IMG/VR virus record: IMGVR_UViG_3300025818_000196
Coordinates: 1-23,540 of that record
Origin: a virus
Direction: 5' to 3' (one strand)
DNA length: 23,540 nt
In this document: positions 14,156-16,310 of the stretch, one piece after another
Numbering within the stretch: the stretch's first letter is position 1
How the letters are laid out: every line of letters starts with the position of its first letter
Notes under the pieces: model-generated
The model's database searches: none
Seen by the model: only the letters and a program-made list of their open reading frames with translations
What the model was told of the DNA's origin: nothing
Translations under genes and position numbers: made by a program

Positions 14156-14189
14156 AAAAAAGAAAAGGGGGGGCAGCCGAAGCTGCCCC
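14155..14189 (-). terminator. Intrinsic terminator after the capsid genes
   Basis: On the minus strand GGGGCAGC (14189-14182), loop TTCG, GCTGCCCC (14177-14170), then CCC, TTTT, C and seven T. The 8 bp perfect stem, a stable TTCG loop and a long T-rich tail make a strong intrinsic terminator. It begins 7 bp after the stop of the 94-residue gene and ends just before the tail tube A ribosome site. Its place between capsid and tail tube A matches T7 Tphi. Confidence 0.85.
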
Positions 14190-14495: not shown

Positions 14496-15329
14496 CTACT
14501 CGGTTGCGGAGATCTTAACGATCCCCTCGTCATCGATTGCAATAGCGCCAGCCGAGAACATCGAAGACACGAGGAACGACGTTTTTTCAGGAACGTAGTT
14601 GATCTCGCTCTTCTGGTTCATGCCGATGCCAAGCCCGATTGCGTCGCGGTGGAATGCGAAGCAGGTGCGGGTCGATGGGAGCGGCAGGCCACCCTCGTCA
14701 CGATCACCAAGAGTGATGAACTTGAAGCCGAGGAACGTGTCGATCTCGCCAGTGCTGAGAGCCTTCACAGTAGCGAAATCGCTGCTGGTCAGCTCAGTCT
14801 CGTCAAGAAGCGCGGACAGGCCATTGGCATGAATGATCATGCAGCGACCCTCTGCTGGTACGTTGTTGGTGTCCAGAGCCTTCTTGGCTGCAAGCAGCTT
14901 TGCAAGGTTCATGTTGGTGCCGCTGCCGCCAATGTCGGTGCCGACAGTGGATGGCGACGATGCGGCGTTCAGCGCGTCAATGACGAGCTGGTCCATACGA
15001 CGACCAATAGCATTACCGACAACCTGAACAAGCTCACGGCGCTCGTCGAAGTTGACCTTCTGCTGGTTGAAGATGTCGCTGTATTCAGCAGCGATGTAGT
15101 CAGACATCGTTGCAGTGACCTGCGAATAGGTCACGTTCAGCGGAGTTACATCGGTCTGTGGAACCCGCACGGTGGCAACGCCTTTACCGATCTTCGGGAA
15201 CTTGACCTGATTGCCTTCGACATTTGTCCGCTCACGGGTGACGCCAGCCAGAGCGCGTGCGCCCTGATATGCCTGCTTCACCTCGGCATCGAACAACTGA
15301 ACGAAAGCGTTGGAAATGCCTATTGCCAT
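14496..15329 (-). CDS. Major capsid protein
   Basis: 277 residues. The N-terminal part (AIGISNAFVQLFDAEVKQAY, then KFPKIGKGVATVRVP, TATMSDYIAAEYSDIFNQQK, ERRELVQVVGNAIGRRMDQL) is the pattern of the HK97-fold capsid proteins of many environmental podoviruses; residues about 1-40 are probably the N-arm, with a helix near 95-125 as the spine helix. AAGGA lies 7 nt before ATG 15329 (GGAAGGA in full). It has its own promoter, a leader of roughly 125 nt and a downstream terminator, as expected for the most abundant virion protein. No slippery-sequence frameshift extension is visible at the C-terminus. Length is shorter than T7 gp10A (about 345 residues). Confidence 0.88.
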   Translation of the reverse strand: MAIGISNAFVQLFDAEVKQAYQGARALAGVTRERTNVEGNQVKFPKIGKGVATVRVPQTDVTPLNVTYSQVTATMSDYIAAEYSDIFNQQKVNFDERRELVQVVGNAIGRRMDQLVIDALNAASSPSTVGTDIGGSGTNMNLAKLLAAKKALDTNNVPAEGRCMIIHANGLSALLDETELTSSDFATVKALSTGEIDTFLGFKFITLGDRDEGGLPLPSTRTCFAFHRDAIGLGIGMNQKSEINYVPEKTSFLVSSMFSAGAIAIDDEGIVKISATE

Positions 15330-15343: not shown

Positions 15344-15427
15344 ATTTCAAAAGTTAACACTGGTTCGCCAAGCAGGTGTCCATATAGGGCTGCGACTTGG
15401 GCATGTGCGCCACGCCCCCAAGCGGGG

Positions 15428-15456
15428 TTGACAGGTCGAAAGCGATTGTCTGTCAA
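15428..15456 (-). repeat. Inverted repeat at the predicted 5' end of the capsid transcript
   Basis: TTGACAG (15456-15450), 15 nt, then CTGTCAA (15434-15428): 7 bp perfect arms. It begins at the predicted start point of the capsid promoter (about 15454). It could be a 5' hairpin stabilising the mRNA, or an operator. The TTGACA itself has no -10 box at 16-18 bp, so it is not an additional promoter. Confidence 0.55.
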
Positions 15457-15461
15457 GGGGG

Positions 15462-15490
15462 ATTATAGGGAAAAAAGCGGAGGCTGTAAA
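15462..15490 (-). promoter_or_regulatory. Sigma70-type promoter for the capsid gene
   Basis: On the minus strand TTTACA (15490-15485), exactly 17 bp, then a perfect TATAAT (15467-15462), and a C-rich discriminator with start near 15454. The -35 box lies inside the loop of the preceding terminator hairpin and the spacer contains the 3' stem arm and T-run. It is the best promoter in the window and lies about 125 nt upstream of the capsid ATG. Sequence match only; a phage RNA polymerase could be used instead. Confidence 0.68.
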
Positions 15491-15499
15491 CGCCCCCGC
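15471..15499 (-). terminator. Intrinsic terminator after the scaffold gene
   Basis: On the minus strand GCGGGGGC (15499-15492), 7 nt loop GTTTACA, GCCTCCGC (15484-15477), followed directly by six T (15476-15471). The stem is 8 bp with one G-T pair and very GC-rich. It starts 7 bp after the scaffold stop at 15507. Its loop carries the -35 box of the capsid promoter. Confidence 0.78.
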
Positions 15500-15506
15500 C
15501 TCAAAG

Positions 15507-16310
15507 TCACATCGCGGTGTAGTCCGCAGTCCCATAGACCTGTTCAAAAGCCTTCTCGACTTTTGCGCGGAATGCCGGGTCGCTCTGATATTCAGGCTTG
15601 GCAACCATAGCCGACAGCTCTTCCTTGGATGGCGCGCCATCGACTGGCCCGACATCTACCGGGATCGGCTTGTCGCCGTAGTAGCTGCGCACCTTTTGCA
15701 GGGCGCGCATGCCTTGCGCTGTGCCGGCCATAATCTTGAACTCTTCAAAATCATCGCCGCCCCAGACGCCCTTGTTGACCAAGCTCTGCGCCCACGTCGT
15801 CATCGACTTGATGGTGGCATCAGCATTCGGGCCTAGCTTCTCGTACTCCTCTTTGTGAGAAATCGCAGCTTGTTCGCTTTCCGCGCCAGCCATTTCGATG
15901 AACTTGCCAGCCAGCTCGTTAAATGCCGCCTGACTAACGCCGTGCGTCTTCGCCCAGTCACGATAAGTGGCATACAGCTCATCATCCTCTGGAATGCCAG
16001 CCTCAGTAAAGATAGACTGATCATACTCATCCGGAACCTTATGCTGGCCCTGAGAAAACTTTTTCTGAAGCTCGTTGTAAGACTTGACCAGATTTTCAAG
16101 ATCCGGGCCTTCATCCTCATTCCAGAACTTATCCGGGTACCACTCTGGCCGCTCAAAGGTGATTTCTTCATCCTCTGACGCCAGTGTGACGCTATCAACC
16201 GATGGCTCGGTGTCTGGTTGCAAGTGTGAAATAGACTGCTCTTCTGCTTGCTGCTGGTTGTCGTCGCCTTCGACTTTGGCATCGGCCAGCAGCCCTTCAG
16301 TTTCGCTCAT
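15507..16310 (-). CDS. Capsid assembly scaffolding protein
   Basis: 267 residues, acidic. Residues 1-60 are a low-complexity acidic, Gln-rich start, followed by FERPEWYPDKFWNEDEGPDLENLV, a common opening of T7 gp9-like scaffolds, then helices (KSYNELQKKFSQG, SQAAFNELAGKFIEMAGAES) and a C-terminus with repeated Lys/Glu. In T7, gp9 forms the internal scaffold on which the procapsid is built and is lost later. Its start ATG overlaps the stop of the Bbp19-like gene (ATGA). It lies between portal and capsid genes, as in T7. The terminator directly after its stop separates it from the capsid gene. Confidence 0.84.
   Translation of the reverse strand: MSETEGLLADAKVEGDDNQQQAEEQSISHLQPDTEPSVDSVTLASEDEEITFERPEWYPDKFWNEDEGPDLENLVKSYNELQKKFSQGQHKVPDEYDQSIFTEAGIPEDDELYATYRDWAKTHGVSQAAFNELAGKFIEMAGAESEQAAISHKEEYEKLGPNADATIKSMTTWAQSLVNKGVWGGDDFEEFKIMAGTAQGMRALQKVRSYYGDKPIPVDVGPVDGAPSKEELSAMVAKPEYQSDPAFRAKVEKAFEQVYGTADYTAM

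Follow-up and report, generated by a model that had tools for sequence, protein, structure and literature searches.

A 38-bp element between the scaffold and capsid genes in a group of marine short-tailed phages probably acts both as an intrinsic terminator and as a sigma70-type promoter (probability about 0.82), by which the scaffold transcript would be ended and a separate capsid mRNA started. The -35 box of the promoter lies within the loop of the terminator hairpin, and this nesting is kept in most close relatives, whose hairpin stems have been replaced almost letter by letter while remaining paired. The element is real and conserved, and an accident is unlikely.

Gene context and anatomy of the element

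The window, by which we mean the whole stretch of DNA analysed, is a 23,540-bp virus record with a block of virion genes on the minus strand, which encodes terminase, portal, a head-assembly or scaffold protein, capsid and tail proteins. Among named phages, the nearest capsid is that of the Methylophilales phage MEP301, with 67% identity to the window capsid, and the MEP301 equivalent of the scaffold gene is annotated as a capsid assembly protein. A megablast search of the capsid region against phages gave no match. A gap of 177 bp separates the scaffold stop codon (15509-15507) from the capsid start (15329), and the relevant features are as follows.

15507..16310, minus strand: scaffold or head-assembly gene upstream of the element (267-aa ORF; PHROG 1052, head assembly, E 1.8e-6)
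15509-15507, minus strand: scaffold stop codon TGA, read in the sequence
15471..15502, minus strand: predicted intrinsic terminator with 11-bp stem, loop GTTTACA and T6 (fold; stem covariation in relatives)
15499-15492, minus strand: 5' arm of the terminator, GCGGGGGC (8-bp core)
15491-15485, minus strand: hairpin loop GTTTACA, read in the sequence
15484-15477, minus strand: 3' arm of the terminator, GCCTCCGC (8-bp core, one G-U pair)
15476-15471, minus strand: T-run of six, directly after the stem
15485..15490, minus strand: predicted -35 box TTTACA within the terminator loop (sigma70 scan; TTTAC invariant in the 20-sequence alignment A2)
15484-15468, minus strand: promoter spacer of 17 bp, read in the sequence
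15462..15467, minus strand: predicted -10 box TATAAT, 17 bp from the -35 box (sigma70 scan; spacing kept in relatives)
15358..15456, minus strand: structured leader RNA of the capsid mRNA, from the predicted transcription start (covariation; model R1)
14496..15329, minus strand: major capsid protein gene downstream of the predicted promoter (PHROG 3437, major head protein, E 9e-57)
14170..14189, minus strand: hairpin with T-rich tail past the capsid gene and a 94-aa ORF (terminator-like in the scan)

Every anatomical detail of the original prediction, namely an 8-bp stem, the loop GTTTACA, six Ts and the boxes TTTACA and TATAAT at a distance of 17 bp, was recovered on the minus strand, and the stem extends to 11 bp if the flanking A-U and G-U pairs are counted. 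The hairpin folds with -19.7 kcal/mol (z = -4.5), which was equalled in none of 200 shuffles, and it shows the two hallmarks of an intrinsic terminator, a stable G+C-rich hairpin and a U-tract directly after the stem. A simple terminator scan did not list this hairpin (15502-15471), apparently because the extended stem takes up Ts of the tail as partners for the A and G beside it. The two hexamers with their spacing of 17 bp conform to a sigma70-type promoter and represent the top match of this type in the 15.5 kb scanned, agreeing at 11 of 12 positions.

From the observed anatomy, conservation and compensatory stem changes, we infer how the element would act. In the RNA, the hairpin and U-tract would end the portal/scaffold transcript. 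In duplex DNA, the same bases would provide the -35 box (loop), the 17-bp spacer (3' arm and T-run) and, adjoining them, the -10 box, from which host RNA polymerase would start a separate, abundant capsid mRNA 6-8 nt further on, at the 5' edge of the leader hairpin P1. The likely purpose would be separate high-level expression of the capsid within a compact intergenic space. An end of scaffold transcription at the point where the capsid transcript would start agrees with the gene order, and many relatives also have a hairpin behind the capsid gene. No phage-encoded RNA polymerase was seen among the eight window genes scanned, in a record which may be a fragment, and the gene is absent from the nearest isolate, MEP301 (PMC8024684).

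Conservation of the nested arrangement

We collected 80 viral loci and 22 loci from genome contigs by capsid similarity and read the DNA upstream of their capsid genes, which yielded a usable set of 83 loci with 61 distinct elements, including the window. Four of the loci (L081, L083, L085 and L086) are phage relatives in contigs filed as Opitutae, Hyphomicrobiales, Flavobacteriaceae and Paracaedibacteraceae genomes. These are probably phage contigs binned with bacterial metagenome-assembled genomes, and since the labels also belong to unrelated phyla, they provide poor evidence for hosts.

An element was counted as nested if it had a stem of at least 7 bp with at least three G-C pairs, a T-run of at least four, and at least three bases of the -35 box in the loop. 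By this fixed rule, nesting is present in 30 of 37 distinct elements whose capsids are at least 80% identical, and L047 would be a 31st case with a shorter T-run. In the whole set, all 34 distinct nested elements have a spacer of exactly 17 bp, and all have a T-run of at least four, as the rule demands. The 3' arm and T-run together happen to measure about 17 nt, and the nested geometry should therefore be easy to keep once present. The stems themselves are very different (e.g. GCGGGGGC, CACGGCAGTTG, AGAGGGAACTG, AGCGCGGC and AGGCGGGG), and the loops hold TTTACA, TTTACC, TTGCGG, TTGCAT or TTGCAA.

Twelve relatives share a common hairpin axis and could be aligned pair by pair. All 96 of their 96 stem cells are paired, with two-sided changes in six of the eight pairs; shuffles matched these values 0-1 times in 500, and sliding the pairing partner abolished the covariation signal. 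The -35 box TTTACA is invariant in the same alignment. Because pairing is kept by compensatory change while the promoter boxes stay fixed, two constraints appear to act on the same bases. The comparison with related phages thus bears out the layout in most close relatives despite replaced stem letters, and strongly backs the full nesting of the -35 box in the terminator loop. It also argues against a protein-binding site, and an operator dyad is rejected, as the stem letters vary with compensation and only the pairing is kept.

The original prediction had regarded relatives that keep the proteins and not the element as evidence against it. Such relatives exist as a minority of the close ones (6 or 7 of 37) and as most of those below 80% capsid identity, whereas most close relatives retain the element. 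Non-nested relatives usually retain the promoter, and several have a separate terminator upstream. Among the close ones, the promoter of L010, L044 and L045 is kept and the terminator stands apart from it, further upstream, and L043, L051 and L031 are without a nested terminator. In more distant groups around L059-L067, a hairpin lies upstream and a -10 box resembling that of a promoter is present, but the two are not nested, and no nested element was found in the DNA upstream of the capsid genes of MEP301, Dunaliella virus SI2, a Vibrio phage and HTVC010P. Since only a minority of close relatives are without nesting and the promoter is usually kept, nesting is favoured and not needed. On the capsid tree, the nested state requires seven changes, and a second nested clade (L072, L073, L075 and L080) stands amid non-nested relatives with different stems, a different axis and the -35 boxes TTGCAA or TTGCGT, which suggests that nesting arose more than once.

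Alternative explanations for the nesting

Overlap of terminator and promoter might merely save space, with no functional link between them, and we give this explanation an even chance. Intergenic regions are shorter at nested loci (172-210 bp, median 178) than in non-nested close relatives (191-250 bp, median 225), and the non-nested relatives manage with a retained promoter, in several cases with a separate terminator. However, the roughly 45 bp saved in a genome of tens of kb represent a weak selective pressure, and the nesting has survived near-complete replacement of the stem and occurs in two clades that lie far apart and differ in their loops and axes.

A functional coupling could be added to the dual-function reading if a polymerase terminating at the T-run stayed on the DNA and re-initiated at the promoter, such that scaffold transcription feeds capsid transcription. 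E. coli RNA polymerase does stay on DNA after intrinsic termination and re-initiates nearby in vitro (PMC6978380, PMC6978322, PMC11347151), and a complex halted at 15471 would cover the spacer and the -10 box, judging from typical footprints. The earlier proposal that a polymerase paused at the terminator would sit on the promoter is therefore geometrically sound, and we retain it as a candidate derived from geometry. By the same footprints, a promoter-bound polymerase would cover the hairpin DNA, and the terminator would then be read only when the promoter is empty; terminating and promoter-bound complexes should not coexist on the element. A paused polymerase could, however, equally block the promoter, relatives with a separate terminator exist, and nesting is not required for re-initiation, which is reported to act over hundreds of bp. 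We regard such a hand-off as unlikely. Slightly less probable still is its full form, a device which releases the polymerase exactly on the capsid promoter for a restart, couples scaffold and capsid outputs, and heads each capsid message with a new leader RNA with P1 as its 5' end. As an explanation of the nesting, genome economy is no worse than polymerase hand-off.

The hairpin might also serve another role than termination, either as an operator dyad, as a DNA hairpin extruded for recognition by a phage polymerase, as in the early promoters of phage N4, or as a stabiliser of an RNA 3' end. A stable inverted repeat does sit on the promoter, but a T-run follows the stem in nearly all relatives, the -35 and -10 consensus with 17-bp spacing indicates a sigma70-type promoter, and the element lies just past the scaffold stop codon. 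We consider these roles improbable and retain the dual-function terminator and promoter as the preferred reading.

Consensus scans yield several promoter-like sites by chance. In a strict scan of all loci, which covered both strands of 834,850 bp, the 49 nested elements found all lay 100-220 nt before the capsid gene; Markov-shuffled sequence contained none. A further 1.9 Mb of viral contigs, which were fetched by RNA patterns and partly overlap the first locus set, gave 37 matches upstream of capsid genes and three more; of these three, two are copies of the element that happen to stand at contig ends, leaving only one that looks like chance. With these statistics, the conservation and the covariation, a coincidence of a hairpin with promoter-like hexamers is refuted for practical purposes.

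Probable capsid transcription unit and leader RNA

The hairpin at 14189-14170 is the probable end of the capsid unit, and 30 of 54 relatives have a similar hairpin some 300 nt past the capsid gene. Together with the predicted promoter (15490-15462), these hairpins suggest a capsid unit bounded on both sides, with its own promoter before and a terminator after the gene, as in T7-like phages; at the level of sequence, the window has both parts.

The predicted capsid mRNA begins with a structured leader of about 100 nt, which consists of a hairpin P1 with an AYAA/C internal loop, a CGC/GCG middle helix and a hairpin P3 mirroring P1; the two mirror-image hairpins carry a GGAYAACC / GGCCC internal loop. 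Copies are present at 15358-15456 (minus strand) in the window, at L070:4880-4977, L079:4895-4973 and L083:4864-4976, in L117, L136, L146 and L198, and in others. The distance from the -10 box to the beginning of P1 is 3-8 nt in all but one of the 41 leaders listed, which places the predicted transcript start at its 5' edge. P1 shows strong covariation; P3 is nearly invariant in the close group, and its pairing is therefore not probed by covariation there. Support is poor for a possible pseudoknot helix (columns 83-86/107-110), in which 74% of the cells are paired. The thermodynamic z-score of the whole leader was not significant, and the evidence for its structure comes from covariation and not from energy.

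The model R1, built from the close group, detected the leader directly before the capsid gene in 11 more distant relatives (E <2e-4), with weak matches in L090 and L091. A protein-blind search of viral contigs with a 19-nt P1 pattern returned many loci at which a capsid gene of the same superfamily, with as little as about 30% identity, starts on the same strand 70-355 nt further downstream, and about half of the matches (64 loci), with no capsid nearby, are probably due to chance. No Rfam family matched the window stretch even with E values up to 5 allowed, and in 11 relatives nothing reached the gathering cut-offs; a distant blastn search of the leader against phages gave only short chance matches, and a search against plasmids gave none. 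The leader is a candidate for a new RNA family, as it has no Rfam match and precedes capsids that are only about 30% identical.

Many distant relatives have the leader behind the scaffold gene and show neither a promoter nor a terminator there, from which it appears to be older than the fused element or independent of it. In L117, L131, L136 and L184, it stands directly after the scaffold stop codon, again with neither signal visible, and would lie inside a polycistronic message. Some distant leaders (L154, L174 and L142) repeat the GGAYAACC / GGCCC hairpin in additional tandem copies before the capsid gene, as if these were a repeated binding module.

Comparison with known systems

Filamentous phages have a central terminator beside the promoter of gene III, overlapping it between virion genes. 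There, the promoter lies upstream of or within the hairpin and its transcript escapes, which is the reverse of the order in the window; a literature search for this precedent gave no paper. Full nesting of a promoter in a terminator was not found described in a full-text literature search, a weak negative since most subscription papers lie outside its reach.

The terminator-promoter pairs and re-initiation described for E. coli (PMC6978380, PMC6978322, PMC11347151) resemble the window in their close spacing, by which a released polymerase could re-use the promoter, but in the window the -35 box is the loop and the spacer is the 3' arm with the T-run. In the T7-like phage LUZ100, the capsid gene has a local promoter and terminator (PMC10134795), and the capsid gene is set apart as its own high-level unit there as predicted here. 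The T7 type uses a promoter for the phage polymerase, whereas that of the window is of the sigma70 type, and the window has a second predicted terminator before the capsid gene, fused with the promoter.

The fused element is a new arrangement of known parts, and the leader RNA may be the more novel component. Rfam includes leader motifs of phage head genes, which are structured RNAs in the 5' region like the leader of the window, but no Rfam family matches the latter. Conserved far beyond this phage group, it is a candidate for a new class of phage element in capsid mRNAs. An overlap of regulatory signals is commonly written off as accidental; in this element, the shared bases are under visible double selection. 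If both functions are confirmed, the element would offer a compact insulator-promoter part of natural origin, and the recycling of polymerase after termination, so far shown mainly in vitro, could readily be tested on it.
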